Source: Owenia fusiformis
Lineage: Eukaryota; Annelida; Polychaeta; Sabellida; Oweniidae
Direction of reading: 5' to 3'
DNA: 64,000 nucleotides
Assembly (NCBI GenBank): GCA_903813345.2
Contig: CAIIXF020000010.1
Location: 18,113,181-18,177,180 of the forward strand
The number at the start of each line of letters is the position of its first letter. The first letter of the stretch is position 1. Below, one piece after another: positions 14,628 to 53,963 of the stretch. The notes under the pieces were generated by a model. The model did no database searches, was not told the origin of the DNA, and saw only the letters and a list, made by a program, of their open reading frames with translations. The translations under genes were made by a program, and so were the position numbers.

Positions 14628-15045
14628 TCTATCTTCCACAGAACCCGGTGCTATTACTTTCAAGAACTGCAATATAAGTCCGGATAAGAACATATTATAA
14701 CTCAAAGTTTTCCGAATTAATTATTTCTTAGTTTTGTTAAAAAATAATTCCGTTTTGTATTTCAAGTATTTTGAACTTTCCTGTACACTATTTTTGTAGT
14801 TTTTTCATTCACAAATTATATCGATGCAACTTGTTGAAGTTATTTTAACTATTTGAAAATAGAAAGAAAACTCTAAATATATATACTCAATAAAGTTTCG
14901 CAGAATCAAAATTAATTTGAGATGAAGCAGATTCATCATACGAAATCATGATTTATAAAGTCACTTTAAAAATTGCAATGTCGGACTGTTTTTCCTACTC
15001 TTTGTATTAATCCCCAGTCCCCTTGATCAAGTGTAAACGAAACCA

Positions 15046-15155
15046 GGGTTTCCCCAATAAAACTGTGAACAGACACGTGGTTTCTATACGTCACTCTACA
15101 TCACCCAATACAATAGTTCACTTGGTTTCAGTTTCTCTTCCGCGTTGATTTCCCC
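15046..15155 (-). promoter_or_regulatory. Candidate immune-type promoter elements of TIR gene A
   Basis: About 420-530 bp upstream of the ATG, read on the minus strand: GGGGAAATC (15155-15147), GAGAAACTGAAACC (15137-15124), GGGGAAACCC (15055-15046). The middle one matches the interferon-stimulated response element at 13 of 14 positions. The flanking two look like Rel/NF-kB half-palindromes. Order and spacing are seen; binding is inferred. Confidence 0.4.
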
Positions 15156-15654
15156 TTAACTGACACCGTATAAGGACCTACAATCCATATAAAGCTTCAA
15201 TATTTATGTCTTGAAGTTATCTAGATTAAGACTAAACCTAGCATATTCGAATATTCTATTTGGAGACACAAATGTTGGACATCTTTCAATGAATGCAAAT
15301 ATATACAAAAACACATACCAAGAGGAACATTGGGCCTGTTTTTTATCTGCTACAAAAATTAGTACTTCAAAGGGCTATAAATTTATGATATACATATATT
15401 ACCATTTGTGTGCATGTGATACACCATTCGAAAGGCTGGAGTAGCCTATCTGGTGTCAAAATTGTTTATCGATAATCTTTATTGGGGTTCCAAATGGAAA
15501 TGTCTTCCCATATTTTCAAACATATTGTCAGTTATTGTTAGTTATTCCTTAGTTGAATACACAAACAGATGAATAAATGAATTGACTACAAATGCTAGGT
15601 AGAAAAATTCAGTAGACCCATGCACAAGGTAGAATGACTGATGTACATACATGT

Positions 15655-15855
15655 AAAAGACGTAATACATGCAGATGACGGAAATATGCACAAAGCGAAA
15701 ATATGTGCCCTCAAGGCGTAAATATGCACATGCAGAAGACGGAAATATGCACAAAGCGAAAATATGTACGCACACGGCGTAAATATGCACATGCAGAATA
15801 CAGAAATATGCACATGCAGAGGGTGGAGATGCACATGCACAAGGCGGAAGTATGA
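15655..15855. repeat. Minisatellite, 61-bp period
   Basis: Copies starting at 15671, 15732 and 15793 (each GCAGA...GACGGAAATATGCACAAAG) are spaced exactly 61 bp apart, with the last copy degenerate. Each unit also holds a shorter ATATGCACATGCAG theme. Apparent open frames rich in Cys, Ala and His on the minus strand here are by-products of the repeat. Confidence 0.9.
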
Positions 15856-16948
15856 AACATGCGCACAAATAGATGAATCTTCCATGACAAATGCGCACGT
15901 GTACAAATTCAATATATTATGGAGAAGACTGAAACTGTTGTTAGGGAGATTTCGCTTAGTTAGTTTTGCACCACAGCTAAATAATATAATGTGTTAGATG
16001 ATATTTTACAGTCCACGGGGCAGGTCTCAGAATAAATGCATATGGGTGTGTTTAGATATTAGGGTAATGGCGTTGAATGGCTGACCTTGTGGTCAAAAAG
16101 TGAAATGCTAATATTTTTCTTTCGGAGACCTTATGAATCCTCCATTCTCATAATATTCCACATTTTCTAAGTAAAACCTAATTTGTAAACCTATAATGTT
16201 TACATGCTGCCAAAAATAAAAAACATCAATAACATTCTCATTGAAAATGCTGAATCAACAATGCGTACACAAACAACATTCCGTAACTACACAAAAAACC
16301 AAACAAGGAAGTGAATAAATAGAAAACGCAATGGTCAGTTCTGATGAGACGCTTGAACTTTCGAGGAATCCGGAACTTTTTATGTTGGAATGAACACAAA
16401 TAAACAGGCTAAAAAAGAACTAAATGTGATTTATTTTGATTTCATAATCAATAAGGATAAATGCAAGCAGGAATCACGAAGATTCATCTGGAAAGAACGT
16501 CCATTACTCCGAACATGGTCGTATGATTAATTCATGGGGATTTTCTTAATGGTTGGGATGCGAGTGTACACTTCCACCATCTGTAATTACGAACTTTAAT
16601 TTTTCTGAATTGTGACGCATTCTTTATAATTGATAAAGCATTTTCCACATGATAAAGGGGAAAATGTTGTTTTCTCAGATTAAAAATAATTTGCTGATCA
16701 AACCTCTAAAGAAAGTAAAATGGCTTTATAGAGGAAGAGCAAAAGTTGTCATCGGGAATGGAAGAACGTTTTGTAATGATCAATTTACTACTATTCTAGA
16801 ATTAATCATGCCAATAGTACAATACAATGGAAGAGTTAACAATACCCATTTCCAAGAATTTTATTATATATAGTTTGAAGATTTGGTTTTTTGAAAGGAT
16901 TTAAAGCGTAGGCCTAACGGCAAAAGTTAGGGTGGCTCAATAAATAAA

Positions 16949-17046
16949 TAGGACAAAAACGTATTTCAACATCGAAAAAATTGCTGAACATTTTTTATTC
17001 TTCGGAATTTGCTGTTTTTTCGATGTTGAAATACGTTTTTGTCCTA
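16949..17046. repeat. Hairpin with 32-bp perfect arms
   Basis: TAGGACAAAAACGTATTTCA... at 16949-16980 is the exact reverse complement of 17015-17046. The loop is 34 nt. It abuts the left end of the mariner-type element and may be a solo inverted-repeat element or a filled transposon end. Confidence 0.9.
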
Positions 17047-17081
17047 ATTTACTTTGTCCAATTTGCGGCTTTGTGGCAAAG

Positions 17082-18108
17082 TACAGGGTGGTCCAAAAAA
17101 GGGACACTCGTATTTCAAAAGTAAACATTGATTTTAATGATGAAAACGTATCATTGCCAGTGGATAGGGAATTCAATTATCTTTAATTTGATATACCATG
17201 TTCAAATTTATTGTAATGCCTGTCAATCAGCGTCCACAATACAGAAAATGTCATTTTTGTTTCAAAACGCTTTTTAAAAAACTTACAAAAAACAAGTTTT
17301 TGTCAACATAAAAAGATGCTGAATATGTCTACCATTTTGATCAATTATAGCCCCCAATCTTGGCATAAACTTGTCGACAACATAATTTCAACTTCACAAC
17401 AACACTGCCCTGAATCGATGTAAGGGGTTCATGGTATACCAACTCTGTTGGTTCTCCCCATACGTTGCGGACGGTTGGCATCAGGTGACCTGGGGGAGGG
17501 GGGCAGTGATTAAGGGGGATGAATCAACATGTCCTACACAGACTACTTATCCCTGATCTCATATTCTGATCATTACATTTTCCAACAAGATGGGACTCCA
17601 AGCCAAAGATCCCACAAGACAGTCAAGTATTTAAAGGAGAATGTGCCTCGATTCATCCCCCTAATCACTGGCCCTCGAGATCGTTCTATGTACGGAAAGC
17701 GATTAGGGACCCCCGCATAATTCAAAATCGAATGTAGTTTTAACATGGCAGTGATAATTCACACTGCGCCCTATGCCAACGTTTGCGACTACCACATTTG
17801 GGGAGAATCGACAAAATTGGTGTATCATGAACTCCTTACATCTATTCAGTCCCTTAAGGACAGAATTGTTGAGAGCGGGAATTCATTGTCTCAACAGCAT
17901 ATCAATGATCCTATTGACCAGTTTAATTAGGCCAAGATTGATGACAAAAATCGATCAAAATGGAGGACAAGTTTTTGAAAACCCGTTTTGAAACGTAAAT
18001 GATGTCATTTGTATTATGGCCGCTCGTCGACATGTATTATAATAAATTTGAACTTGTGATAGATCAAATCAAAGGTAATTAAATTCCCTAACCACTGGTA
18101 TAGAAATA
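17082..18108 (+). mobile_element. Decayed Tc1/mariner-superfamily DNA transposon
   Basis: The left end starts TACAGGGTGGTCCAAAAAA, a typical mariner-type terminus. A second, internal pair of inverted repeats is clear: AGTGGATAGGGAATTCAATT near 17158 against the complement of AATTAAATTCCCTAACCACT near 18090. Between them are pieces of a DDE transposase in more than one frame: IFQQDGTPSQRSHKTVKYLKE (17575-17640) holds the catalytic FQQDG aspartate region, and YHIWGE with SLKDRIVESGNSLSQQH (17785-17900) is the region around the third catalytic residue. Frameshifts and stops show it is dead. The outer right end is missing or too decayed to see. Confidence 0.85.
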
Positions 18109-18296
18109 GGCATGTAATAAACTATGCCACAATAACGAAGATACCGTTCAACATTAGTAATTGTATTTTATTGCTTTAAGACACCAGCAAATCTAATTGT
18201 TCGCCTCGGGTGTTTTTCAAATATTTACATTTTGAGATCTAAGAATTGAAGTCCCCACCCCTTCATGTAGGGTATGTCCGAAAATGAGAGTAATTG

Positions 18297-18530
18297 TATA
18301 ATATATTCACCATTCGTCATCATGCTACTTCTCAGAAGTCGAACGGAATTCTTTTACATACGGTTATTCGATAATTACCAAGGCCGTTCAGGTTACTCAA
18401 ATAAGGGAGAACGCAATAGTACATGATACAGACCGCGCCTTGCGCCTAATGGTGGCAAATACGAGGTTGCGCCAATTGCAAGCAATGGATTTGATTCGCG
18501 ATGGAACTCGTGCTGAAACAAAAAAAGGTT
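18297..18530 (+). other. Orphan open reading stretch, possible exon relic
   Basis: About 75 codons are open between TAA stops (upstream near 18295, downstream at 18537) and read ...AVQVTQIRENAIVHDTDRALRLMVANTRLRQLQAMD.... The stretch is more GC-rich than its surroundings. A CAG acceptor-like word sits at 18393 and AAAAAAAG/GTTTGT could be a donor near 18530. I do not recognise the protein and see no partner exons, so a pseudo-exon or transposon fragment is as likely as a gene. Confidence 0.25.
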
Positions 18531-19310
18531 TGTAACTATTTTATTTGTGTTTTCGTCGTATTGTAGTCTCTTTTATCAGTATCTGAACAATGGCCTCTAA
18601 AAAGAAATGACAGAGATTAACTTAAGTTTAAAGTCACAATATTGTTTTTATTTTTATCTATTTTAAAAAGCTAAGCAGTCCATAGTTCTTTTATTTTCTC
18701 AATTAGTAATGCGTAACACCTTTAGATAAAGTGGAAATAGTTCCCATGTTATTTTCCTCTAGGAAAACTCATGCGATCCATTGCTTTCAGCTCAATTTCC
18801 ATAATGGATTGGAACTGATTGGATATCTTTAAAAGAACCGTTTGTCAAAACGAAACATATTGATGCAACAAAAATTGAAAAAAGCAAGGGTAGAAGGGAT
18901 TTGAAATCAGGACATTTCAGAAAAACATGTGGGTGGGTTGTTTGCATCTTCCCTGTCTCAAAGTCGAAATCATTTCATCATCCCTATGAGTGCTTTCCCT
19001 GGAGGTAATACATTGGCCTATACTAACATATGCGCCTGTTTAAACCCTTAGAAAATATCCAAAATCCAACATATGACTGTACGAAATCTGTTGCGATACT
19101 TTCCCTCCGCCTTTTGAACATTTGAGCCCCTTTTTGATAATTTGGCATAGAATCAAAAATTAACCCCCAATAAGACCAAGCGATGCCCAAAAGGCATACT
19201 AATTGTGGTCCTATGCCCCCCCCCCCTGGATCCCCCCAGTGACCATAGACACAAATATTGCTTTATAATAGGTCCGAACATTTGGAAGGAGCATGTACAT
19301 TTATAGTACT

Positions 19311-19385
19311 CTTTACATTCGTTCGACTTCACTTCTTAAAAGAGAGCTTCGTCTTAGTTTATAACTAGACTATGCTCGCAGGGTA
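19311..19385 (-). mobile_element. Short TACCCTG...AGGGTA MITE, inverted copy
   Basis: Reverse-oriented relative of the roughly 77-bp element at 26421-26497 and of 23931-24010. Shared words are CGACTTCACTTCTTAAAAGAG and the CTAGAC/GCAGGGTA end. Confidence 0.65.
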
Positions 19386-19583
19386 CATTTATACAAAGTA
19401 TCTGCATAAAAAGCGTAATATTCACTAAATAGCCTTCCTTTCATTGCAATACTAGTATTGAATTCCATACAAAATGGAGTCCAAAGGCTATGACAGAACA
19501 CACTATTTTTTAGCAATTTAAGCCATGTTTTCATGGTACCTTCCCCCCTGCTTCTTCTCGTATATGGTATGTTTGGCGACATG

Positions 19584-21594
19584 TCATTGTTCATTGAGAC
19601 GAGCTTTCCTCTCCAATTTTATTCTGATTAATTGTTTTTGTTTTTCCTTTTCTTGTTCATCGTACCTAAGGCGGATTTCTGCCCTTGCAACTTCCCGCTT
19701 ATCTTCAAGCTCTTTCATGTTTTCATCTGTTACAGCAGTTTTTTCCAGGCATGTCCTCACGAGATTATCGCGATGGGGTTCTTTTTCCCAATTTGTGCCG
19801 GTCAACACACGCAATTCTGTCGGTATATCCAAGTTTTTTCTGGGGGTTTCGTAAAAGATTGGAATAAGACTACCGCATCTTCCTTTATTAGTTAGACTTT
19901 CATACAATGCTGTGTGAGTCTTATATGTAGCAAGTCTGTTCTTGATAAAGTCATATGTCATATAAAGTAAAATAATAGACCCTCTTTCTAACAAGACGTT
20001 CAGTTGCTCGAACAGATCTTGACAAAGCAGCTCGCACGAAAAACGAACACTTATGGGTCGTTCGCTTTTTACTTGACACCGTTTCTCGAATTCCCTGGCA
20101 AACTTCCTAGCATTTTTCTCATCTTCATCAAGGCAAATTAAACTCACATCCCAATAATCTTCCTGTAGTTCTAAAGGGAGGTTCCCATTTCCTATGAACT
20201 CGTTACTCCCCACTGCAATAGCGCCTTCAATCGTATTCTGTGGTATTCCAACCTTAATTGGCACATCGCTTCCCATTGCTTGTATAGGTGGGTCCATATC
20301 ACCAGCTTCGCAGTTGTCGTTATCTCCTGACTTTTCAATTATCACTTCGCTGTCCTCTTTTAGATCAACATCTCCTACATCACTAAACTGAATAGTACTT
20401 GGATCTCTTAAGAGCATTGTGCTTCTTCTATCAATGTTGTTTACCAACATATTTTCTGCATTCCGGATCGAGACGCATGGTGGAATATGCATTGGTTTAG
20501 GAATATCTGAACACAGTGGAGATTCATCCGGAATTAAGTCCTGTTCACGAGGACTACTGTGGTTTGACCCAGAAAAGGTCAAAGTAGAAAGGGGAGAATG
20601 CATAGAAGAATCAAAATCACGGTCTACTGTGTCGAAGTCGTCTTCTACAACTTCTACAAGCTGAGCATTATTATGTGTTTCACCACTGTCATCGGGATTG
20701 TGTTTGCAATTGAGTTCAACGCGAGATTCATGTATATTAGTATGCACACCTCCATATTCAAGGCCAATGCTTTGTATTTTGTCTTCTTTACAGCAATCAG
20801 ACTTTGGGGTGACAGCATCCTCGACGTCAACATTTTCACATTCTTCTGAGTTACAAGTTCTTGGGCTATCATTTAAATTGGAACTGTGAACAACCTTTGT
20901 ACAATATTTAGCATTGGCGTTGGACTCTTCAATAGCTACATCAATGTTCACATCTTCAGAGTTACGCTTTTCAGTGGTATCCTCTTCATTTTGGCAATCA
21001 GCGTTTGCAGTAGCAACATCATTTGTTTCAGATTTCACACACTTCTCTATTTTCCCAGTTGTGACATTTGAACCAGCCGTTGTAATGGCAAGAAGTAGGT
21101 CCGGAACTTGCGCTCTTCTGCCTAAATAAGTCATATGTAAAGGTCTTTTGAAATGACAGACATACGAAAGAGCAGCTTGATACAGTTTCGCCTTCGTTAT
21201 TGATGAATAGGGCCATTGGGCAGGAAACGGTGTATTGATGTCGTTTTCAGGTATAACTAGAAGAGCGGGAAATTGTTGGTCGGTCATTAGCCCAGGATTT
21301 GTGTCTAGTGTCATTGAAGTCACTTCCTCTGGAGCTAAAATCAAGAGTATATATCCATATTTTAATATTTAGAAACTATTACAAACAAAAAATTGACACA
21401 ACAGTTGCAATCAACGCTGTCACGCTTCCTGTCACTACATTACTAGTCTACTTACTTTCAAGGTTATTTCAATATGATTGTAGCAAACATAACTTCTCTG
21501 TACCTAAAGATAGATTTTGCTCAGGGCCTTTTTCCTGTGTCGTGTTGGCGTCTTCGCCATACCCACTTTCTGCATCTGAATCACTGAGGGGCAT
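19584..21594 (-). CDS. Divergent TIR-domain protein with acidic linker (TIR gene B)
   Basis: Coding exons 21594-21504 and 21334-19584, joined in phase 1, give 613 aa. The ATG (AGG ATG CCC) is the first after an in-frame TGA and lies 67 nt past an acceptor at 21662, so a 5-prime UTR intron is likely. Residues 31-110 form a folded-looking N-terminal part I do not recognise. Residues 110-420 are acidic, Ser/Asn/Asp-rich and probably disordered. Residues 424-562 resemble a TIR domain: DYWDVSLICLDEDEKNARKF, GSIILLYMTYDF, and RCGSLIPIFYET. The last 45 residues are a charged coiled coil (ELEDKREVARAEIRLRYDEQ). Box 2 and the usual C-terminal FW box are not visible, so this is a divergent TIR; its call rests on strand pattern, the LIPIF block and its neighbours. 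An adaptor or decoy role is inferred. Confidence 0.75.
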
Positions 21595-33138: not shown

Positions 33139-36100
33139 CTAATTCTTATTTCCCTTATCCTCTAAGCTGTTCAGACTAGACTTGCTACTCTTTCTCATTG
33201 TCTTAAATATACTGCTGTTCAAGCCACTCGACAAGCCACTCGGTGCCGTTTTACTTCTAAAAATGTTAAACAACTTTTTGATTCCAGACTTCGGCTTGTC
33301 ATCAGATTCTTGGGATTGGGTGTCGCTGAAGTCCCTGTTTGCTCCAGCATGGGTGATTTCATCCATTGAAGTAATAGTATTGTCAATTTGTTCACTGTTC
33401 AATGACTCCTCAGTAGCTTCAATGGCATCTTCTAGAGGTCTGTCCACTAAAGCAAATCCTTCCTGTTCACAACTTATGTAGAAAGTACTTTGGCTTTGTA
33501 CTTGCTGATCTTGGTTTGGGGGAATTACATCATCGCCTACTGATGTGTAACCAGGAGGTGGTTCACTGGTATTGGTGACATTGGACATATTGCTGATGTA
33601 AAAATTAATGTTTGAGTCTAAAGGGATCTCTCCAAAGGAACTTAATGGTTGTGGTGGATTATCAGTGGATCCTGACACATTAGCTGAATTCGCCCGTACC
33701 GAAACTGATTTTGATCCAGTGGTATGCAAAGAGGATGATGGATTTGATAATGCTGATGAAGCATCACTGATGCAAAGAGACAAACTAGCATTAGAATCCA
33801 ATGGAGCCTCATTAAAGTTACTAGAAATATGCGGGTCGCCATTACCAGATGCAGATACAGAAACGACTACTCCATCTTGTCCTTCTTCTTTACTGCATAA
33901 AATTGAAGGCTTGCTCAACAGACTTTCATCGGGTCTTGGATTTATTTCAACACTATCAGCTATTTCCTCATTATCCTGAATGGTAGATTCATCTTTGATA
34001 GGTTGAACCGCTCCCAGAGGATCTGCTGATACACACGTTTCAATGGATTGTATTCTGTTCTGCTGGGTTGAAACACCTTTAGCTAGCGGTACATTATTTA
34101 AGTCATCTGTCAGGGATTCAGGAAAGTTTTCAACAGTAATTGGTAGAGCAAGACTGGCAGATGCAGCAGGACTTTCAACTGAAGACTGGTTGTGCTTGAC
34201 TTGTTGTGCTTGTATATTTGGTCTGCTTATTTCTAGATTGTCACTAGTCTCTGGCACCTGGTACTGCATGCTCCGAGGCAATAACTCATCAGGAATCGCA
34301 CCATCAACTGAATCTACATCTGATTTTATACTTGTTGTAGCAAAGGATTTAAGACTTAAATTTTGAGCTTCCTTTTTGTTGAGTTGGCTATTTGTGGCAC
34401 TTATATCACTAGGTGGCTCAGAGGATAAATCATCAGCAACAATTTTTCCTCGATCAAGCTTCTCATCAGTGGTTAATCCAGATGTGCTTGGGCACATGCT
34501 AGCTTCCTCTCCCCCAGTTACTTCCAGACCAGCAGACCCTACCAGAGCTACATTGGAACATCCATCAATGCTTGATTTTTCTTCATTTTTTTGGACATTT
34601 GAACAATCTTTTTTGACATGGCTATCAGTTCCACCAAGCGTTGTGGGTACATCTTTCTTTAATTGATCAGAAACACCCGATGGGTTTATATCCATATACT
34701 GCTTTGGTATTGTACGATCTGGGTCAACATCACCGGTGGACTCAATATGTTGGTTGCCTTGGTTACCTGTGTGATGTTTTGTTGTGTCCCGTGCAGAAGA
34801 GTCATAATACAGAGGTTCTGTATTTTGTGCAGCTTCATTTAGCTCAGGCAGTAGGTCAGTGCCCTCTACTGGTTCCCTGTTAGATGTGATACTGGGATGC
34901 ATAGCTGAAAAGAGGTTCATTGAATTATATGTCAATGCACAATATGTAAATGGTATATATTATCAAAACACACTTATATTAAACTGGAAAACTGAAATAA
35001 TTGGTAGGGAGGGTCAAATGACTCTTCCAAAGAAATTAAAAAAACTCACATAGATTTCTAAATTATTTGCATAAGTTTGTTTCAAAAATATGGTTAAAGG
35101 ATGAGTCTGGGAATGAGTCTGGGTATCGACTTAGAAAATATTGAAAATTGTAATGTCTGAAAAACCAACTCAGTCACACATATTATTAAACTTCAATATC
35201 TTATCCATCTTCTGAGAGTACAAAAACGTCAAATTCTATCTCAATTAATGAAGAATTTTGGCATCAAAGACAGTGCATATCACTTTGTCAGAATTGAAAA
35301 AAACTAATGGGAAATATTAAATGAATTATTTATACAAAAGGTTTGAAACATATCCTCCAAAACATTGCTTACTTTCTTTTTATAGACATTGAATGGTATT
35401 TCTGGATAAGTGAATTGATTTTTATCTGGGTAATCAAAGGATTATAGTCACTCAAAGTTACTGAGCTTCCAGTTTTGAGACTTCAATTGTGTTGGTGAAT
35501 TTACACATACTTCAGTCAAATTCATGCTGAGCACAACATTTTGGTTTCAATTTTATAATCTCTATACATGACCCTAGTGATGAAGAGTCAGAATCAGTCA
35601 AAAAATCTAAACCGGAAAACTGTGCTCATTGTGAAAACTAAAAGTGAAGCAAATTTTTCTCTGACATTTCTTACATCAAATGGCAGCCATCTTGTTTTTC
35701 CCCCTTCAAATTAAACTGGCGGGAAATTCAAAAATTTGAAAAAAATTTTAATCCCTGAATATATTTCAAAAATATGATTTTCTTTTAAATTCTTCATTGG
35801 TCTTAAGTTATTTCTTCTTCGTAAGTCATACATGTTGCCATTGGTGTTTTTTTCTATGATAATGACTATTTTTGTTTGTTAAGATACTTATTCTGACTCT
35901 CAGCAGGGGGTTAATTATGCATCAAAACTCGTGAAAAAGTAAATCTACTTATCAAATATAACAAGGACAGTAATAAAAACCATATTTCACATACATTTGA
36001 CTGAGGGACCAAAAGGGCATATACCCGGACACATCCTTTGCAATTTTGGAAATGTCACATCATGAAGTTCTTGAGCTATAGAGTTAAACATTTAAAAAGG

Positions 36101-39100
36101 CAAAGCCAAATTAAATTGGGCAAAATAAAGTGCAGCCAGTGCATGCTACATTCAGTCAAGGTTACGGAAAATGATTGTAAGGGCACTTGGAATTTGAACC
36201 ATTGGGCCTACCTTTATTGTCCTCATCTCCCGACACTGTGTTAGAGTCTTCTGAAGGTTGCCCTGTGATGTTCAGTGCTGAAATATAATGCCAATAATGT
36301 AATTCAGCACTGATTAAAATCAATTATCTAAAACTTGAAATTGGTGGGGGATTATAACAAGGGATTACTGGGTTAATATTTTTTGTCCATTTTACTTGCT
36401 ATATTTTCAAGCCTGATGGTGCATATAATATTTGTACTTTTCTGAAAAATGATGAGGCAATCGATTATCGTTTCGTGTCTGTTGTTGTTTGTTTGTTGAT
36501 TTTATATTGTGCTAGAATTTTTACCAGATCTTGTCGACCGGGTGCTAGGAATAGTTTGGAGTGTAAGGTCAGGCTGTGGTGATCCAATACTTGGTGATGA
36601 GGCCCTTGGTGAAGCTCCCCCAAGTTCCTGACTCGCTGAGCTTTCTACTGGCTCACTGGAAGGATGTTCCGATGGAACTCGTACTGAGGGTATGGGGTCC
36701 ATTTTTAGCTGGACATTCTCTCCTACTCCTGAAAATGATATTGTATTTCTATATAGTACTGTACAGTACGGTTCTACTGTAAATTCCCTAATCTAAGCAC
36801 ATTATTTATCCATAAAAAGACATGAGCATCTTCCATAAAAGGAATGAAGTTATCTTGGCATCAGTGGTATATGAGGGAGCAAAATGATTTTATGCTCCCT
36901 CACATTGACTGCTTCCTCACATTGACAAGAGTTATTTTATTTTTATTTTTTGGAGAATCAAATAAATGATGGTGTACCGGTTTGAACATGGACTTTCAAC
37001 TTGAAAGCCCATGGTTTGGAGTAAGAAATATTCTAATCGGTATTTAGACTATCTTGGATGATAATTAGAAGCCTTCGTTAAAATACGTTAAAAAGTTATA
37101 ATGGAAAAACGATAATTTCGAGTGTAGGACATTCATGCCTCTTTTAGTAACTTCGTATAAGATCATAAAAGACTTCTGACAAATTATGTGCAGAAGCACG
37201 ATTGACATTGTCATTGCATGTGCTGGGTCATTTCTCTGCAAATAAGCAGCTTTTCAGTTAAAAAATACATTGTATGAAAATCTTGAAATTTCTTGTAAAA
37301 ACGACCTTTTCCCTCACATTAACCAGGCAATGAGATACTGTGATCCTATAGCCATTGAAGCAAATGAGTCAGAGTTCTAATAGTGTTATGAATGACTATA
37401 ATGAATACTCTGTATACAGAAAGAAACCTCATGTGTATATACACCTGTACATGTACACTGATTTATGAAATTTATTCATTTAGGTGTACATTAATATGAA
37501 GGACTTGTGTCTCACAAGGCAACACCAGTCTTATTTTATTTTAGTTCAAACATGTAGTGTCACAACCTGCAATATTATTACAGATGCCAAACACCGAGCG
37601 CTGAATGCCAACTACCAAACACTGACCACCAAACACCATCCAAAAAGGTAAGACCATAACAATACCAAAAGTAAAAAATAAAAATCTTTTATTGTTGTCT
37701 TAATTTTTTTAACTCATAATTATCAAGCAGTGGTGAACCAGCTTACCAGATGATGTTTGGGACTGGACCACTCTAGTTGCCATGGTATTCAGAGTTCCAG
37801 CAGAGGGGCTTCTGCGACTGACTGCACCTTGAAGGTCATCTAAAGATTTGACAAAAATGGGAAAAATTATACATATTTACCTGGATTATGAAAATATTTT
37901 GTGAATCTGACATTACATGATAAACAGATAAATGGAAAGTTGACAATGATGTCAAACATACTCGCACTAAAAAAATATTTTCCAGACTTGAAATTTGGGC
38001 CCCCTTGTGATTAAAACACCATGAAATCCAACAAGGTCCATGTAAAGTTTAAGTTTATGAAGGTTTCACTGTGTCCCATTGATGTTAGGGTTAAACCTAT
38101 TAAGCCAATCTGATTGCTTTAAGGTTTAATTGTGGAAGGAACACGAGATTCAAAAATATATTTATTTTGACAGTAATTACATATGTGGATTCTGACCACC
38201 TCACTTCTTACCTTTTGCTGGATTACTGGACATAAAACTACCCTCAAGAATCTTACGACCCGAATCTTCTTGTTTTGTGTTGGACCCGGACTTTACAGCA
38301 TCAGGACATTGATCTTTTGAGGGTTCGTTTGGTTGGTTCTCTCTTTCTGGTTCATTTGTAGCATCTTCTTCAAGGACGTATGGAGCATCATCACCCAGCA
38401 TGTCTTTCTGATTCCCCTTGCTCACTTCTTTTGTACTTGAAGGGGCTTGAACGATAGCTTGAGCATCACCAATCTGAATAATGTGGAAATTTGAAGTTTG
38501 TAGTTATGAAGATTTTGAAGGTAGACCAACCCCTTTGAAACGTTTTAAATCAAAACTGATTCAGAATTCTACAACATGGTAGGAATGCACACTTATTGAT
38601 CAAACTGTATTTTGAAGCAAATCAACTTTTGGTAACAAGAAGTACTTTTTGGGACCACAATACCACTTTATCTTTGTTGAAAGTAACTAACTAGGCTTTA
38701 ACATTATCTAATGGGGATTTCTTGTGCATAAACTTATGTAGGAATGAATATACAATGTACAACGATTTACCTGAGTACGATCAGTCCTCTCTATGTTGAT
38801 CACCTGGTTTGGGGCTTTAGCCAGTTCCATCATGGCTTTCATCTGTTCAAGTATCACATTTTGATTTTGCTCTAGTTGACCTTGCTGCATCTTGGTGAAA
38901 AACTCCATCATTTTGACCATAGCATCTTGGTTATGAGTCACTCCAGCTGTAGTGCTGACCTTTGGTTGAACACTTGGGGCATGATGTGGAACACTTGGAG
39001 TGTTATCTTCTAATGGTTCAAATTTTTTCTGCTTCAGGTTTTCATTAAACTCATCATCTTTGTTTTGTTCATGTTCTAATGCCCGTTGCATTCGCATTTT

Positions 39101-42100
39101 GCTTTCTTCTTTCTTCCGCTTCTTCTCACGCTCCTTCTCGAGATCAGCAATTGCCCGTCTCGTGACCTCCTCTTGGACCCAAATGTCAATCCTGTCCTTT
39201 AAATCTTGTTCACGCTGTCTTCTGACCCCCCGTTTGTATTGTAACATTTTGCTGATTTTCGAAGGGACCCAATCCATGCAGTCACTCTCTGTCATCATAA
39301 CCCCACGAAGCGTGCGGATACCGAAAGTTTGTGTTGACAGTGTGACCTCAGATTTCACATAATATAGCGGAACAACACACCACCTCCTGTCAGGGTCAAC
39401 AATTGATTCCATAAGGCACTCATCACGGATAAGCTCCGTCCATCTCTCACCTTGATTAAACTCTTCCGTGAACAAAATAAACATGTATGTGCTATGTAAG
39501 ATAGCTGTGGCAAGAGATGAGAAAATTGAAGGCTGGAACAAAATATCATCACTTCCCCTATTCTCGGATTCAGCACAAAATTGGAATAAACAGATTTTAG
39601 GTTTTCCTCCTCTCTCTAATGGCACTTTGTCCTGCATTATTCTCTTAAGTTCCTCAGCTTTAGAACGGTCGGCTGCGCAATAAATGATAACGCCATCAAA
39701 GAAACTCTCTTGTAGGTCGGCTGGTAACTCATCTTCATATATTGGATACGTTTTGCCTCTGACCACATCTTCTATGCTCTCTGGTATAAGAACTTTTGAT
39801 TTTGTTGGACTGGACTGGTCACTGCTACTGAAGCTGCTGCTACTGCTGCTGATGTTTTCACTGCTACTGTTGGAGCTGCTAATGTTGTCACTACTGGAGC
39901 TATTGTCAATGCTCATGTCACTGGGGCTAGTGTTGTCACTGCTTTTGCTGCTGTCACTATTAATACTACTACTGAATTGTGGAACTTGTGGTGTGGTTTT
40001 GTCTTGTAGTGGTTCCTTCAGCATGGCCTTTATCTGTTGTGAATCTTGAGAGGGAATAGGTGATGACATGTTGCCACTTTCTGGAGGAGCTTTTGGAATA
40101 GCTCCACTTTGTGAGTTGATGTCACTTTGTGGAGGAGCTTTTGGAATAGCTCCACTTTGAGAGTTGAAGTCACTTTGTGGAGGACCTTGCAAGGACATGG
40201 CTTGAGTTGGAACTTCTCGGGGAATGGCTCCAGTTTGTGTGGGACCTTGGAACATAGCTCCACCTAGTGGGGAACCTTGTGGTACAGTTCCATTTTGTTT
40301 AAGAGCTTGTGGGATGTCCCCATATTGGTGGGGACCTTGGAGCATGGGTCCATTTTGTGGGAACCCTTGTGGCATGGCTCCAGTTTGTGGCGGACCTTGT
40401 AGCAAAGCTTCACTCTGGTTAAGACTTTGTGGCATAACTCCATTTGACAGGCTGTGTGATGTGCTCGCTGAAGGAGGCCCCCGTGGCTGAAGATCTGTAA
40501 AGCTGTTACTGGTGTCCATACTTGGGGGCCCTCGAGGCGTTAGGCTAAAGTCCACACTATCTGTACCTAAAATATATTACATAATAAGTATATAAAGATA
40601 CATGTATGTACAATTTACCACCTGGAAGATTTTGACGAGAACAGTACTCATGCTTAACAATGAATCAAAGACATTCATCAATGGTCCTCCTTTATTTTTG
40701 ATTTGTGTTATAGTTATCATTTTTAAAACTTCTGCCCTCGCTTCAAGTTTTTAATCTTTTCTGTTCATTTTGATTGAGTTATGTAATAATCGTAAGAGAG
40801 ACATTAGAACAGAATGTATGTTTGTATGCGGTGTATATTGGTGAATATACCCCTTTGACTTTGTATGCATCCGCTGGTATCATTCATTCTCCCAGCTCAT
40901 TAAGGGTATACACAGCAGTCTGTGTAACACAGGTTGTCAATGGGGAATATTTACCATCATACACTCTGTTCTTCAAAGTCCATCCCTCAATTGAAGACAA
41001 TAGGCTAGAATTGATATTTTTCATTTCATTTCTGAACTGAAACAGATGCTAAGATTATTCAAGTAATGTAAAACAGGAAAGTTCAAAATACCCAGATAGA
41101 CTATTTTAACCAATCATCATCTTGGGATTCTTAACTTCTCAGAAGTATAACAAAAGCATGTTAAACATATCTACTTCTCCAACAAACCTTTGCTAAAAAT
41201 ATTCCTATTGCATGTCACAGTGACATTGAATAATAATTCAGTCCATTTTTAGTTGAAATTGACTTATGTATGATTTAATCGGAATTTGATAGGCATACTT
41301 TCAATTAATTTTTTCAAATATCATAATTATGTCACAATGTGCATCATTATCATTAAATAATCTTGTTGTATATGCCCTTCATTATAGTAATAAAAATATG
41401 TCATCTAATTTTTGTATTTTTCATAAGGGAAGGAGGAAATAACTGTTTTAATTGTTCATGGTCACAAAACAATGAATCAATGGGAATAAGTAATGTTTTT
41501 TCAACAAAAAAGATGTCAGTCAATGTCAATGTGTTCATAGTAGTTTTGAGAAATCCCAGTTTTGATGAATCATCATGTACTAAGTGACCTTGAATATGAT
41601 TGGGTAAGACTTAAGAAAAGGCATTTGGAATATTTGTTGAATCATTTTGCTTTACATCTGTAAAGTGATATTCTCTATTTAATCTAGATTTAACAAAGGA
41701 CAGTTGGTGTAGGCGTATTCATTACCTCACTTTTTTCTTATATCGTTCCTGGGGATGTGGGAGGGGGATTTGGTAAAGGATAAAAATCTGAATAAATATG
41801 CGGTGGTGTTTTAATGGTAAGGGGGCTACCAATATCCTTAGTAGTTAGGAACTCTTAACCCCTCTGCCCAGCCCTCTCACAGAGAAATATTTACATATGA
41901 TTTGTTTGGTCTCTTTTAATGTAAAAAGTACTGAAAAAGTAAATAAACCAGATGTAAATAGTTCTGTGAGCCCTCTGTCTGATAAATTTTCGCACATTTA
42001 CATACCTGGTTCAATCTGTTTGGCCAATGATGTTTGTCCATTTGCTTCAAGAGCCTTTTGCAATTGTGACTGCCAGTTCTCATGCTTCATTACACAATTC

Positions 42101-45100
42101 AACAAAGTCATTGTAGCTAACCTTTCACCATTATTCGATTGTTCAGCAGTGATCTGTTCCTGGAAATAACAATTAAAGCGTAATAAGCATTGTTTTGTCT
42201 ACGAAGTATAAAAATGGTAAATTAGGATTTATGACACTTTTGGTTTAAATACTGTAAAACATTTTTGAATTAACGCCCAAAAGAATCTGTTACAGGTGCA
42301 ATACAAGACTGAAATAATTGTGGGTATAACAGAAGCATTAAATGTGTTTTAAAATTTGAAATGAACAGATAAGGCATGTTACACTGGCGGATCTTGTAGA
42401 AAATTTCAAAATTTGGCCCCTCTTTTTAGTGTTAGGGGCCCAACATTTTTTTCCGCGCAAGCGCAGAATTTTTTATTCTCAGACCTGAAGTTTGGGCCCC
42501 CCCTTGTTGGTTCCCAGATCCGCCCCTGATGTTGATAGCATTATACATATCAAATTACCTCAAATCAAGAGGTCACATGCATCATTTTGAAAGTACTTTT
42601 TAATAAATGGCCCGTGGGCCATAAAATGAGAAGAACTGCTTCAAGAATGTATTTAACTAGTTAGCACTATATTTCGTTTTCATTCAAATGTTAGCTTTTG
42701 CATTCAAAACTACAGTTTCACTTTCATTTTTATTTCTTAACACTTAATTCTTTTAATAGTAACATTACTGTTTACAGAACAGTTCTGCAGTAGGTTATAG
42801 TTTACAGTAACTTATGAATCACGATAAATCAGGTCATTGCAACAAATATTGCTCATTCTTGAAAGTTATCATATATATATAGATTCTTTTTAAACAATAG
42901 GGAGTTTAAGCTTGCATATAAAATCTAAACGCCAACCTATACATATGACCAATCGCCCATATAAATATATATACTGGCAAAGATGACTCTATGCTATTGC
43001 ATAACAGCATTATTGGTGACCTAAGTTAGACTGAAAAAATGGATAGTTTTCTCTTGGATGTTGTTTACCACCTGATGGCAATTCAATGCCATTCCCCTTT
43101 CAGAAGCTCTTGACAAATCACAATATAAATTAATAAATAAGAAGCCATTCACAAAGTTACGAAAGGGTCAGAGGTGCTATTAAATCTACAAATGAAAGCA
43201 AGCATGACACCACTATTTTCGTAATTTTACGAATCATTTGTAGCTTTACGAATCTTACGAAAATGCAACTTTATGAAATTCGCAAAGTATACAATGGACT
43301 TATGAACATGATTTTTTTTAATTAACCTTAATTACTCAACAACTATCCATTAAGCAAAATTGAAAAAATCCTGTTACATGTATTTAAGGAATAAAGACTG
43401 AGATTTTATGATTTATGGCGTAATATATGACCAAAAATGTTATCCTGTTCATTGTTAAAAGACCAAAATCGCATATCGATTGAGGTCTTTGGCAATGGCC
43501 AGAATAAAATTTGAACTTTGAAGTCATATATTTGACATAAATCATAAAATCGAGGTCTTTGTTACGATTCTAATATGATAATAAACAGACAAGAAACACA
43601 ACTATTTGCATTTATGAATTTCAGGGGTCATATATACTCCAATAAAGACCAGTAAATTAATTGTTCTAGCTATTGTGATGTCACGTTTCATATTAGAATC
43701 AGTCTTAATCCCCATACTCTCCTATACCCAAACATGGGAGATCAAAATACTATAAGTTATTGAATGATTTGAAGTGCAATACAAGATATATTCTGCTTGA
43801 GAAATTCCGTATTGGAACGAGACGAAGTTGAGTGCCAATACAGAATATCGAGAGCAGAACATATCCTGTATTGCACTTCAAATCATTCTATAACATTTTT
43901 ACCGTGTGATCCTTTGTATTGCTACTGAGAATGTCTCCTTGGTACCAATATTTTCTGTATTGCGACGGAGATGATCAATGGGGACAATCTCAGCAGCAAT
44001 ACAGATTGGTACAGCACAAGAACTGACCAACCAGAAGGCTTCATTTTAAGATCATACGATGAATATGTATATTCTCACTTTTAGTAAAAAATGAAGCCAA
44101 TATAAGTTATTGAATGATTTGAAGTGCAATACAGGATATATTCTGCTCGAGAAATACCGTATTTGAACGAGATGAAATTGAGGGCTTCATTTTAAAGATC
44201 ATACAATAAAAATATTCTCTGGGTATAAAACGACATTAAACTGTCATAAAAAATGATGTAGCGTGATCGTAACCTACCTTATCAGTTTTGGTGAGGCACG
44301 GAAGGTAAGGCAGATATTGCTTGGGGTTTATCCTATCTACAAATGCAGGCATATTGTTGTGGATGTGTCTCTCAGCTTCCCTTTCTGTCTTGCCTGAAAT
44401 TAATTAATGAAACGATTTTCAGAACTGTATTGTGTATAAAGACAACAGGGTCTTGAGAATATGATTTGATCAGAAGTTGTTGTAAATTGGGTATTCTACC
44501 CTATACAAAACATTGTTCTCAAATCACTAGAACTGAGTGGGTGGTGATAAAAATAGTCTACAAAGTGACAAATTCACTATTTTTAGATTATTTTCATTTA
44601 TTATATACCCAATATGTATTCTGATGCTCATTGCTTGTTTATGGCCACATGCTGTGAAATATATGATTCAGAACTGAAATCATGAAATATATGTCTGAGT
44701 AGACAGGATATTCTTGAAGGGATTTTTTAAATTTATTTTTAATTAAAATTAATTCATAGTCTGATTGAATGGTGGCTATGTAAAGAATTATGTTTAATTC
44801 AGAGTGTTGAGTTTTTCTAACAAATACTTAATTAAATATCTTCAAAATAATATGTTTATATTTTGCAGGGTACCAGAATTGAATAAAGTGTACAACAAAA
44901 ACTTTTAGCATTGACTGGTGACTGTTGACGCCAGAAAAACATGGCAATAGCATGAAGAAATACTGACAGGTAGCTAATTTTAACCTCTTTATACTGTAAC
45001 AGTAACATCTGTCTAATTCGAATGGCATTGGGAACAGCTAAAAGTGTTCAAATGAGGAGGTTGTTCACATTTCAAGGTTTTAGCATTCGCGCAATTATGA

Positions 45101-47899
45101 TTTTTGAAGAAATGTGAACTTACATTCTCAATAATATTTCTAGTTATATTGACCACATAGCTTCATGGCATTCCAGTGATTTGAAAAATTAGTAGTTCGG
45201 ATTAGCCAGATGTTTGGATATACAGGTTTTACTGTATTGTCTCAGTGGAGAAAATAGCAGTGGTGAATTTAGCATTATCTTTATATATGGAGAGAAAATA
45301 TGTGGCTTGAAAGACAGGTAAACTAATAGAGCATCCAAGAAATGAAGTGGATATATGTATAACATGGATGCAATGATGTATTTCATACTTGAGTGGGGGT
45401 AGATATCACGCGGGAATATATATCATATCTGAGGAGCGGGCAGGATATATTGTATATGTCCCGCTCTAGGCCAAATGCAGGCAGGTATAATATATCCATC
45501 CCGCTCCCGGGAATTTTTTCAAAAATTTAAAAACGTTTAAAAATTTAAATTTCAGAAGTTTAAAAATTTTTTAAAAAGTTTAAATGTTACAATTCTATTG
45601 TATTGAGCTGAAGGAATATTATGAAAATGTTAAATATAAATTGTGCTTTTACAGTATAGGCCTATCTTGTCATTTGAAAAAGGTGGTAAAGGTTATATCT
45701 ACCCCAAACCCACTCAAGTATGAGATACACCAGTTATATACGGTCGGTTTTGGATACAGTGTTTATCCCGCGGGAAATAGGTGTATCTCCCTCGGTCCCT
45801 GTGGTCCTTCGTGAGATACACATATTTCCCTTGGGATAAACCCTGTATCAAAAATCTCCCAGTACTTACTCACTTCGAGAGCCATGTTATATTTTGAAAC
45901 TTATGGCTCTCAAATGGGAAAGTGAACAGCTGATTAATAGTGACCTTTGAAATCGAATTAAGTCGATCCGCGGCTTACTTTTGGTCTCTAACTGTATCTT
46001 ACATCAGTATCATCAATCCGTGTAAGTATTGGAGCGCTGAAGTACTTCCCTTTCGATCAAGACTTGTAATTGTTAGTCGAGTGAATGTTTTTACTGCCAA
46101 ATTCCAATATGGCGTTTTCTGCTCGGACATTTTCGTAAATCTCCGGAGTTTGTCCGAACCTAACTAATTCTCAAAATTCATTTCGTTCGTTGCGTATCTC
46201 GCTCCTAGCAAACCGCCATATTGGAAATAGGTCTAAAAAACATTCACTCGATGAACAATTTACAAGTCTTGATCGAAAAAGAAGTATTTTAGCGTTCTAA
46301 TACTTACACGGATTGATGATACTGATGTAAGACACAGTTAGAGACCAAAAGTAAGCCGCGGATCGACTTAATTCGATTTCAAAGGTCACAATCATTCAGC
46401 TGTCCAAATGCTCCGTGGGAAAGCTATTATATATATCAAAATCCAAATAGCTTTCGCAGGAAGTAACCCAGTACATAACCCTTATATATATGATGTAGAA
46501 AAGTCAGCCAGTCTATAGCTCAGTAGGAGAGCAATCAGATAGATCCTGGGAGGTTGCAGAGGTTGATTCCCAATGAGATGGACTGACTTTTTCACATCAG
46601 CCCTAAGCAAGTAAGCATGCATAGAAATTGTCCACCTTGGGAGTAATCACTTTACTAAATTACTTGAAATGAGCAATATAAATCAAGTATATTAAAAAAA
46701 CGTTTATATCACTCAGGGTTTGGGAGTAATTAAACAATTTTAACTTCTCTCTGGCATAAAGTACTTTGCAATAAATTATATAAATAAACTAATTTTCAAA
46801 ATGGTTGCTCACTAGCCAAGTTGTCATCAGAAGAAATAATATGCTTTTAAGTAGCCACCTATAAAATTTTTGAAAAATCGCACACATGTACTTGTAAAAT
46901 AACACACATAAAAATGGTGGCCATTTTTCAAAATGGCCGACTACTCCCCAAAGTTTTATTAGACACTGTGCCATGCTTAGAGTATTCACATATCAAATAT
47001 GAACAAAATCGCTCCACTACTTTTCGAGTTATAGTAAACTACGTTAAAATGGCGGCCATTTTTCAAAATTTTTCAAAATGGCCACCTTCTACCAAAAGTG
47101 TCTTTAGACAGTGTGCAATGTTTATAGTATTCACATACCAAATATGAACAAAATTGCTCCACTACTTTTCGAGTTACAGCAAAAATCGTAAAATAACGAG
47201 TAAAGGCCGCCATTTTTCAAGATGGCTGCCATGTGCTTTTTTAATATCTACATTTGTAGCTTTATTAATGTCCTTTATAATTTTTTTACACTAAAAACAT
47301 ATTGCTATTACAGTTTTACATATTGTACCTAAATTACTGTAAAATCGGCACTAAAATGGCCGCCATTTTGAAATGAGCGGCCATTTTGAAAATCGGCTTT
47401 CGAGCAGAACTTCTACCCCCATAGGGTATATGTGTACAAAATATGAACAAAATCGGGCCAACGGTATTTGAGTTATTGCCCGGTCGGATGGACGGACGTA
47501 CATACGGACGGACGTACGTACGGACGGACGGAGGCGTTCCCTATATCCCTCCGAACTTCGTTCGATGGGATAATAAACAATGTACACATAATTACTCTCT
47601 TTTAGAATTACTTTACCTGAAAAAGGTGGCCTGGCAATAGGGGTTGAGGTACTGCTATTACTCATACTTGAGGAATGCAGTGGTCCAGTATGAGAAATTT
47701 GATAAGGTCCTATAATTTGCTGTCCAGTGTTTGGTAGTGGCACGGTATGAGCCTGACTAGAATAGGATTGCATGGTTCTATTACCATGCACATGTGCCAC
47801 ATCAATGTGGCTAATTGTGGGTTTGTAATTTGTCATATTTTGTCCTAACTGCATATTTGATGGGGTTTGGTTGGATTCGGGACTAAGTGGAGTAGCCAT
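33139..47899 (-). CDS. CARD-TIR adaptor protein (MAVS-like CARD fused to TICAM-like TIR)
   Basis: Coding exons: 47899-47617, 44393-44278, 42159-42006, 40566-38771, 38473-38212, 37839-37747, 36728-36525, 36277-36212, 34904-33139, all GT-AG with matching phases; they total 4740 nt (1579 aa). Exon 1 starts with ATG in a strong context after an in-frame TGA. Residues 1-95: polar, Gln/Ser/Thr-rich. About 97-184: a CARD with YLPYLPCLTKTDKEQI, whose LPYLPCLT equals human MAVS. 218-350: Pro/Gln/Gly repeats. 383-435: Ser tract. 473-628: TIR with FFDGVIIYCAADRS, STYMFILFTEEF, DPDRRWCVVPLY. 628-700: charged coiled coil. The rest is Ser/Thr-rich, ending in basic GIKKLFNIFRSK. No membrane anchor is visible, unlike vertebrate MAVS. 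Likely an innate-immune signalling platform; the role is inferred. Confidence 0.88.
39236..39703 (-). other. TIR-domain segment of the CARD-TIR gene
   Basis: Encodes about residues 473-628. The core strands read DGVIIYCAADR, STYMFILFTEEF and WCVVPLYYV. The block DECLMESIVDPDRRWC aligns with DEVLTVTMIDPTKRWC of TIR gene A. There is no RDxxPG box 2, and a long loop (ESENRGSDDILFQPSIF) takes its place, as in TRIF/TRAM-type TIRs. The intron just before this exon is phase 1, as in TIR genes A and B. Confidence 0.85.
42384..42527. mobile_element. MITE-like element, GGCGGATC family, in CARD-TIR intron
   Basis: Begins CTGGCGGATC and ends GATCCGCCCCTG. The inside includes CCGCGCAAGCGC and GGGGCCCAAC blocks, matching the element at 28760-28952 and the outer flanks of the long palindrome at 10068-10493. 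Confidence 0.8.
42528..44277 (-). other. CARD-TIR intron 2 remainder
   Basis: AT-rich intron between the two CARD exons. It holds a foldback at 43752-43894 and a part copy at 44100-44220. Words near 42900 (AGGGAGTTTAAGCTTGCATAT) return inverted near 62090. No further exon was seen; splicing the exons across it gives an unbroken CARD. Confidence 0.65.
43752..43894. repeat. Foldback repeat in CARD-TIR intron
   Basis: AAGTTATTGAATGATTTGAA and GTGCAATACAAGATATATTC at the left return inverted as GTATTGCACTTCAAATCATT at the right. A second left arm, nearly the same, begins at 44102. Confidence 0.8.
45866..46465 (+). mobile_element. Foldback element, copy 1 (600 bp)
   Basis: Inner arms are inverted copies of each other: AAATCGAATTAAGTCGATCC, then GACTTGTAA and ATTCACTCGA blocks, returning as GGATCGACTTAATTCGATTT. 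The whole unit has an inverted relative at 50222-50816 with both outer ends preserved (TTACTCACTTCGAGAGCCAT and CTTTCGCAGGAAGTA). It has no coding capacity that I trust. Confidence 0.85.
46510..46584 (+). tRNA. Degenerate tRNA-like unit, probably the head of a SINE or a pseudogene
   Basis: The 75-nt stretch has a Pol III A box (TAGCTCAGTAGGAGAGC) and a B box-like GGTTGATTCCC. AGTCTAT at the start can pair with ATGGACT at the end, allowing one wobble. The D arm GCTC/GAGC is good. The anticodon stem is weak and the T stem does not close, so it is unlikely to be a working tRNA. Confidence 0.4.
46791..47578 (+). mobile_element. Dispersed repeat, direct copy A (788 bp)
   Basis: Starts AATTTTCAAAATGGTTGCTC, carries many AAAATGGCGGCCATTTT words, then a GGACGGACGTACG-type simple repeat, and ends CCGAACTTCGTTCGATGGG plus ATAATAAA. 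Copy B at 48606-49270 is in the same orientation with the same ends. The fixed 3-prime tail after a simple repeat suggests a retroposon-like or rolling-circle origin; the class is uncertain. Confidence 0.85.
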
Positions 47900-48605: not shown

Positions 48606-49270
48606 CAATTTTCAAAATGGTTGCTCAATGCTCACTAGCCAAGTTGTCATCAGAAGAAATAATATGCTTTTAAGTAGCCACCTATAAAATTTTTGAAAAA
48701 TCGCACACATGTACTTGTAAAATAACACACATAAAAATGGTGGCTATTTTTCAAAATGGCCGACTACTCCCCAAAATTTTATTAGACAATGTGCCATGCT
48801 TAGAGTATTCACATATCAAATATGAACAAAATCGCTCCACTACTTTTCGAGTTATAGTAAAATACGTTAAAATGGCGGCCATTTCTCAAAATTTTTTTCA
48901 AAATGGCCACCTTCTAGCAAAAGTGTCATAGGACAATGTGCCATGCTTATAGTATTCACATACCAAATATGAACAAAATCTCTCCACAGTTTTACATTAC
49001 AGTTTTACATATTGCACCTAAATTACTGTAAAATCGGCCCTAAAATGGCCGCCATTTTGAAATGAGCGGCCATTTTGAAAATTGGCTTTCTACTAGCAGA
49101 ACTTTTACCCCCATAGGGTATATGTGTACAAAATATTAACAAAATCGGGCCAACAGTATTTGAGTTATTGCCCGGATGGATGGATGGACAGACGGACGTA
49201 CGTATGTATGGACGGACTGACGGAGGCGTTCCCTATATCCCTCCGAACTTCGTTCGATGGGATAATAAAA
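48606..49270 (+). mobile_element. Dispersed repeat, direct copy B (665 bp)
   Basis: Same start, same order of GGCCGCCATTTT words, same GGACGGAC simple repeat and same CTCCGAACTTCGTTCGATGG end as copy A at 46791-47578, with one internal deletion. Together the two copies flank the first coding exon of the CARD-TIR gene in direct orientation. Confidence 0.85.
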
Positions 49271-53396: not shown

Positions 53397-53963
53397 ATGG
53401 CTGCTTCGCTTCCTTCACGTAGCATATCCGTAGCAGAAAAGCCTCAGCAATATGACTTCTATTTATGCTATAACCAAAATGATGAGAACGATGCCTGGAA
53501 GCTATGTAAAGCTCTTGAAGAAATAGAACTTGACAATGGACGAAAAATACAAGGATTCATTGATTGCAGAGATGGACACCCCGGTAAATCAATCTTCTCA
53601 AATATGGGAGAAGCCTTACAGTTGAGTAAAAAGGTCTTGGTACTGCTTACGGAGAACTCAATGTGTGAAAAAGCATTTACAAGCGATAAGGAAGGTGCTC
53701 TGTTTGAGTTCAAAGTCCACACCACATTACAGATTTCAATGGAAGATTTCGTTCGTGGTTCTCAGGTGCCTGGGAGTATTGGGACATATGTTGTACCAGT
53801 GTTTAATGGGTTCTCTCCCAAAAGAGCCCCTCCTTTGATGAAAAACTTGTTTGGTATAGATTTGCAGCAGAATAATCCATTCACAGATGTCACCACAAAG
53901 TTTAAGAAACTCTTCTCACCAGAAACTGGAATTCAGCGTACAATCAGTTATGATTCACTTTGA
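53397..53963 (+). CDS. Single-exon TIR-domain adaptor with canonical box 2 (TIR gene D)
   Basis: The ORF gives 188 aa from the first ATG; the frame is open upstream to a TAG at 53307 but has no earlier ATG. A good acceptor (CATATTATTCCAG, ending 53247) suggests a 5-prime UTR intron. The protein is nearly all TIR: box 1 YDFYLCYNQND (19-29), box 2 RDGHPGKS (58-65) with the classic RDxxPG, strand KKVLVLLTENS, and GTYVVPVF followed by an FKKLF helix. A short Ser-rich tail follows. There are no other domains or membrane segments, so it resembles a minimal cytoplasmic TIR adaptor. It is more canonical than the three minus-strand TIR proteins. It starts 5.5 kb from the CARD-TIR gene on the opposite strand. 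Whether it acts as an adaptor or an NAD-cleaving TIR cannot be told from sequence by eye. Confidence 0.88.
   Translation: MAASLPSRSISVAEKPQQYDFYLCYNQNDENDAWKLCKALEEIELDNGRKIQGFIDCRDGHPGKSIFSNMGEALQLSKKVLVLLTENSMCEKAFTSDKEGALFEFKVHTTLQISMEDFVRGSQVPGSIGTYVVPVFNGFSPKRAPPLMKNLFGIDLQQNNPFTDVTTKFKKLFSPETGIQRTISYDSL

Follow-up and report, generated by a model that had tools for sequence, protein, structure and literature searches.

MAVS and TRIF are usually presented as two distinct adaptors. Among the closest described systems, oyster CgMAVS and scallop CfMAVS are reported to combine a CARD with a Death domain and a transmembrane (TM) segment (PMC5557890, PMC9879056), and Aplysia is reported to lack both MAVS and TRIF (PMC9334734). 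The base of the TICAM family has been placed in amphioxus, among the basal chordates (PMC9440496). Placozoans have two proteins with both a TIR and a CARD, which are called MyD88-like in a report that found no RIG-I-like receptors (RLRs) there (PMC6321704). Finally, STING-TIR fusions are described from oyster and Capitella (PMC6723221).

A stretch of 64,000 nucleotides from the annelid Owenia fusiformis (GCA_903813345.2, contig CAIIXF020000010.1; hereafter, the window) contains a predicted gene, gene A, whose product joins what looks like a MAVS-type CARD to a TIR that is TRAM/TRIF-like at profile level. Pointing to an annelid, the genome has six matches (E<=1) to the erythrocruorin linker domain of Pfam, an annelid marker; all lie within 22 kb on C6, and three exceed the cut-off (best 5e-7). 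A preliminary description of this DNA could not say whether such fusions had been described in other invertebrates. They have, in the reported placozoan TIR+CARD proteins, so a CARD and a TIR in one protein are not in themselves new (PMC6321704). For a protostome protein that pairs a CARD of MAVS type with a TICAM-like TIR, a limited search of the literature found no description. Two immune alarms that are separate in vertebrates may share a single adaptor in a worm.

A predicted nine-exon gene

Gene A is predicted to comprise nine minus-strand exons, from 47899 to 33139 in window coordinates, that splice into one frame of 1579 amino acids with no internal stop. GT-AG borders are present in all eight introns, and the start phases of exons 2 to 9 (1, 0, 1, 0, 1, 1, 1, and 1) are consistent throughout. 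The unbroken frame first described is thereby confirmed, as are its nine clean exons; the accompanying count of ten coding segments is not. The protein order is: CARD; low-complexity linker; TIR; charged helix; and long Ser-rich tail.

33139-47899, minus strand: gene A, whole; nine exons, 1579-aa protein
47617-47899, minus strand: exon 1; start ATG with 94 residues of low complexity; the least certain exon
44278-44393, minus strand: exon 2; N-terminal half of the CARD; phase 1 at its start
42006-42159, minus strand: exon 3; C-terminal half of the CARD; phase 0 at its start, followed by phase 1 at the start of exon 4
38771-40566, minus strand: exon 4; Ser/Pro/Gln-rich linker, TIR, and charged helix
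39227-39721, minus strand: TIR of gene A; profile-level likeness to TRAM/TRIF
39050-39226, minus strand: charged segment after the TIR, presumably helical or coiled-coil (by eye and composition)
38212-38473, minus strand: exon 5; RHIM-like spacing at the exon 4/5 junction, which fails profile tests
37747-37839, minus strand: exon 6
36525-36728, minus strand: exon 7
36212-36277, minus strand: exon 8
33139-34904, minus strand: exon 9; Ser-rich tail and stop codon

Frames as long as those open in exon 4 (598 codons) and in exon 9 (588 codons) are expected by chance, given each exon's own base composition, with probabilities of about 8e-16 and 3e-17. The predicted ATG (47899) is preceded by only four codons of its open frame, which begins at 47911, and so an in-frame stop stands just upstream. 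An AATAAA was located by eye about 440 bases 3' of the stop codon.

Repeats are present at the 5' end. Two copies of a dispersed repeat flank exon 1 (window 46806-47577 and 48629-49269; 91-98% identical in the listed stretches), and intron 1 contains an inverted repeat (window 45923-46406; 147-nt arms, 93% complementary) that could be a small DNA transposon.

The CARD

The Pfam CARD_2 model matches exons 2 and 3, once spliced, with 79.4 bits (E 2.1e-22; residues 5-89 of 91). Exon 3 alone scores 46.2 bits, and the gain on splicing supports the exon 2/3 junction. In the PDB, 22 of 23 distinct sequences matched at E<=10 are MAVS (9), RIG-I (7), or MDA5 (6). The top whole-chain score belongs to MDA5 (28.8 bits, summed from two stretches); the best single-domain score among the matches listed belongs to MAVS (27.3 bits), and the alignment to the MAVS chain includes the identical octapeptide LPYLPCLT.

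The same genome provides controls. Its one reported RIG-I_C-RD match marks an RLR gene with two CARD_2 domains (41.7 and 48.4 bits, spliced by eye), behind which lie DEAD and RIG-I_C-RD exons. Neither of these CARDs retrieves MAVS from the PDB: CARD1 matches six sequences (MDA5, 1; RIG-I, 3; S100-A3, 2), and CARD2 matches 22 (MDA5, 6; RIG-I, 6; Apaf-1, 8; others, 2). When five sequences were compared with each other, the gene A CARD and MAVS were mutual best matches, as were MDA5 CARD2 and CARD2 of the Owenia RLR, in a design that favours gene A because the MAVS and MDA5 stretches were taken from alignments to it. In the same comparison, CARD1 of the Owenia RLR preferred MDA5 (15.4 bits) over MAVS (11.6 bits). 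Across the whole genome the CARD_2 model yields five matches with gene A at the top; the remaining four score higher with the plain CARD model, which they match as well. The plain CARD model itself has 38 genomic matches, none inside the window.

By profiles and by these same-genome controls, then, the gene A CARD looks MAVS-type, and the MAVS-like CARD of the preliminary description is supported. (An intron position common to this CARD and RLR CARD1 was considered and rejected, as the introns lie roughly 2-3 codons apart by eye, in phases 0 and 1.) A search of the genome for a second MAVS, with the human MAVS CARD stretch as query, returned a single match, at chance level, and failed to recover even gene A; it therefore says nothing about the absence of a second MAVS.

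The TIR and its neighbours

Pfam scanning of exon 4 found neither TIR nor TIR_2, and a PDB search with the gene A TIR alone returned five sequences at chance level, with no TIR chain among them. (An AEP-like, or primase-like, Pfam match on this region, with E 0.024 and 14.9 bits vs a cut-off of 27, is taken as chance.) Three further TIR or TIR-like genes lie in the window:

13203-14627, minus strand: gene B; two exons, 14627-14549 and 13918-13203 (by eye); without a CARD
19584-21594, minus strand: gene C; two exons, 21594-21504 and 21334-19584 (by eye); without a CARD; a diverged TIR-like region, then a charged helix
53397-53963, plus strand: gene D; one open frame; plain TIR protein (Pfam TIR, 4.9e-6)

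The gene B TIR is 26% identical to that of gene A in a protein search of the genome (E 5e-6), and 25% identical over 152 columns in a tblastn search of the window (E 1e-9); its own match to Pfam TIR_2 (0.012) is under the cut-off. Gene C emerged weakly, at E 0.0097, when 1551 window frames were searched with its TIR as the query. The A+B profile missed it, placing it at 0.45 below a chance row at 0.24, and Pfam detected no TIR in it. The clear B, the weak C, and the plain D around gene A (13203-21594 and 53397-53963) look like a local TIR-gene cluster. Elsewhere, the genome contains at least 123 TIR-family matches, many in long open frames; genes A to D are not among them.

Profiles that include the paralogues point toward TICAM2 (TRAM) and TICAM1 (TRIF). 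With A and B, all four PDB sequences at E<=10 are TICAM proteins (TICAM2, three, best 9.5e-5; TICAM1, one, 0.76), and MyD88 is not among them. With gene C added, 29 sequences are matched, headed by TICAM2 (2.4e-7); TICAM1 follows at 4.4e-4, with MyD88 (from 0.004) and TIRAP (from 0.007) in lower ranks. With all four genes, TICAM2 again is first (4.1e-10), then TIRAP, TICAM1, and MyD88. Searched alone, gene B has TICAM2 as the three best of its five weak PDB matches (0.079 to 0.31), and gene D finds IL1RAP, TIRAP, and TLR7 best, with TICAM1 only at 0.86. It is therefore chiefly gene B that carries the TICAM preference, and A and C agree with it. When 25 fetched PF01582 loci of the genome were searched, no match of the A+B profile was better than E 1; once C and D were included, the profile matched TLR-type loci (best 4.9e-6).

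Predicted from the sequence without an alignment, the structure of the gene A TIR is poor (pLDDT 41). From an alignment of the four window TIRs, it shows alternating strands and helices (pLDDT 64.1, pTM 0.63). Foldseek places human TRAM first (4.5e-4, probability 1.00, TM-score 0.53, rmsd 5.5); all of ranks 1-9 are TIRs, with bacterial TIRs after TRAM and TRIF in sixth place. VIA-align 2 puts four non-TIR rows (receiver and pilus-assembly entries) above the first TIR and, at Z 8-10, interleaves TIRs with receiver domains; fold comparison by itself therefore does not decide the TIR call.

The gene A TIR is thus TRAM/TRIF-like at profile level, given the paralogues in the profile. The preliminary description had called it TRIF-like: TRAM is in fact nearest and TRIF next, and the likeness appears in profiles with the paralogues but not in direct Pfam or PDB matches. 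Of the checks that it proposed, the Pfam search recovered the CARD (as CARD_2) but not the TIR, and structure prediction gave a divided answer, with TRAM first in Foldseek but non-TIR rows on top in VIA-align 2.

TIR NADases such as SARM1 have a catalytic Glu four residues after a Trp. In the alignments, this position is Ile in gene A, His in gene B, and Gln in TRAM. The missing Glu favours a scaffold over an NADase, and the gene A TIR probably acts as a scaffold.

Motifs of MAVS and TRIF

Hydropathy analysis found no transmembrane segment in gene A, a C-terminal anchor included. The highest 19-residue mean is 1.61 (residues 532-550, inside the TIR), and the five highest windows all begin at residues 526-533. 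Lacking a detected anchor, gene A is not filed as MAVS. Overlapping pieces of the protein were scanned against Pfam: TRIF-NTD was not matched, and no piece matched the Death domain. The death-fold domain that is present is CARD_2. TRAF motifs occur at chance level; pLxIS occurs twice (0.51 expected, P 0.086).

TRIF has a RHIM located after its TIR. In gene A, a candidate RHIM at residues 774-788 fits the spacing by eye only, with no Pfam or PDB match, and was rejected. A profile built from the three genomic RHIM matches has its best place in gene A elsewhere, at about 0 bits, and 44 of 506 scored shuffles (1000 made) did equally well or better. A pattern written post hoc from the site occurs once in gene A and not at all in 68,423 letters of window open frames. 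With neither TRIF-NTD nor RHIM found, gene A is not filed as TRIF.

(RHIM-like sequences do occur elsewhere in the genome: matches at G000 C3:19306660-19307096 and C6:83605-83658 score 23.5 and 21.0 bits, over a cut-off of 20, with E 0.036 and 0.22, and a third, neighbouring match scores 17.7 bits.)

Origin of the gene

The CARD occupies exons 2 and 3, a pair entered and left in phase 1. When exon 1 is joined directly to exon 4, the frame is kept for 693 codons without a stop; the pair can thus be skipped in frame, and a splice form lacking the CARD is predicted. In the models of genes B and C, a short first exon and a phase-1 intron precede a TIR exon, with no CARD. This arrangement suggests that a CARD cassette entered the phase-1 intron ahead of the TIR exon in a duplicated TIR-adaptor gene. 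The CARD may instead have been lost from genes B and C, or CARD exons upstream of B or C, such as a split CARD, may have been missed. The direction of gain or loss is one that we infer: the phase 1-1 cassette and the CARD-less models of B and C make later insertion the easier reading. For the same reasons the "ancestral-style adaptor" of the preliminary description is not favoured.

Proposed role and its rivals

In the reading preferred here, to which we give a probability of roughly one half (0.48), gene A encodes a soluble, cytosolic adaptor whose MAVS-type CARD takes the RLR signal and whose TRAM/TRIF-like TIR passes it on. The expression, partners, and output of gene A are set out here as we infer them. 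Viral RNA would open the RLR CARDs, by analogy with vertebrate and oyster RLRs. The opened CARDs would nucleate assembly of the gene A CARD; the crowded TIRs and charged helix would then recruit other TIR proteins, possibly the products of the neighbouring genes; and the Ser-rich tail might provide kinase or TRAF sites leading to NF-kB or IRF activation. (The genome has eight matches to IRF DNA-binding exons.) A stronger version, which we consider doubtful, has gene A by itself turning RLR signalling into TIR signalling, so that the RNA-helicase and TLR branches meet there, with the CARD toggled by skipping of the exon pair. A merging of RNA-helicase and TLR-type inputs was already put forward in the preliminary description, and it stays a hypothesis.

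Rather than one gene there may be two neighbours, with exons 1-3 forming a small CARD gene and exon 4 onward a TIR gene of its own, in which case the fusion would exist only on paper. The predicted junction of exon 3 to exon 4 (42006 to 40566) crosses an intron of 1439 bases, as reckoned from the exon ends. Reading on from exon 3, a stop is reached after two codons, and a transcript ending there would encode a CARD-only protein; an in-frame Met 14 residues into exon 4 makes an internal start conceivable. Moreover, B and C as modelled are just such CARD-less TIR genes with short first exons of their own, and exon 1 of gene A is low-complexity with repeats on both sides. However, the exon 3/4 junction is in frame and has GT-AG borders on both sides, and the exon 4 open frame extends only about three codons upstream of the splice acceptor, with no Met in those codons. 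Two separate genes seem rather improbable.

If the fusion is genuine, it might nonetheless serve the TLR side only, as a MyD88 variant in which a CARD takes the place of the death domain and draws in further CARD proteins, instead of answering to RLRs. The placozoan TIR+CARD proteins were named MyD88-like in the report that describes them (PMC6321704), MyD88 is among the PDB matches of the multi-gene TIR profiles, and the 38 CARD and at least 123 TIR matches in the genome put other partners at hand. Yet the domain is a CARD_2, with gene A at the top of the five genomic matches and none of the plain CARD matches in the window, and MyD88 ranks behind TRAM and TRIF in the A+B+C and A+B+C+D profiles and is absent with A+B. 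We judge this role unlikely. Lower still in our estimation, and improbable, is a negative regulator that sequesters RLR CARDs as well as TIR proteins, thereby dampening both pathways. It would accord with the missing transmembrane segment and the chance-level TRAF motifs, and self-association of oyster MAVS is reported to require its TM domain (PMC5557890); but nothing points directly to inhibition, and the TIR and helix of gene A could themselves supply multimerisation. In principle, CARD and TIR assembly need no membrane anchor.

If the stronger version holds, with gene A by itself turning RLR signalling into TIR signalling, then TICAM-type TIR adaptors would predate chordates. A side observation concerns STING: 4 of 14 STING_LBD matches in the genome have a same-strand TIR match 1.0-3.5 kb upstream (G000 C7:10960518-10983382 and C346:219576-223504), an arrangement suggestive of TIR-STING genes, of which three are in tandem. 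Taken with these apparent genes, the stronger version would mean that both cytosolic nucleic-acid branches end in TIRs.

Comparison with known systems

Gene A resembles MAVS in having its MAVS-type CARD close to the N-terminus, ahead of a long low-complexity stretch. Unlike MAVS, it has a TIR, with no TM segment by hydropathy and no Death match, whereas oyster and scallop MAVS are reported with Death and TM. TICAM1/TRIF and TICAM2/TRAM are the nearest solved relatives of its TIR, by profiles with the paralogues, and TRAM is first in Foldseek. Unlike TRIF and TRAM, gene A has a CARD, with no TRIF-NTD match and no RHIM by profile; and it comes from an annelid, whereas the family base, as surveyed, is in amphioxus (PMC9440496). 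The placozoan proteins combine the same two domain classes in one chain (PMC6321704). They are likened to gene A at the level of domain class, and that report found no RLRs in placozoans.

A protostome fusion of this kind, MAVS-type CARD to TRAM/TRIF-like TIR, would demonstrate that the two branches can be wired together. Gene A would also give a testable case of adaptors rebuilt by exon shuffling, for which the lophotrochozoan STING-TIR fusions offer a parallel. There, too, an adaptor of a nucleic-acid pathway has been given a TIR (PMC6723221), and the Owenia genome apparently has such pairs of its own; the fusions differ from gene A in belonging to the STING branch rather than the RNA-helicase branch.
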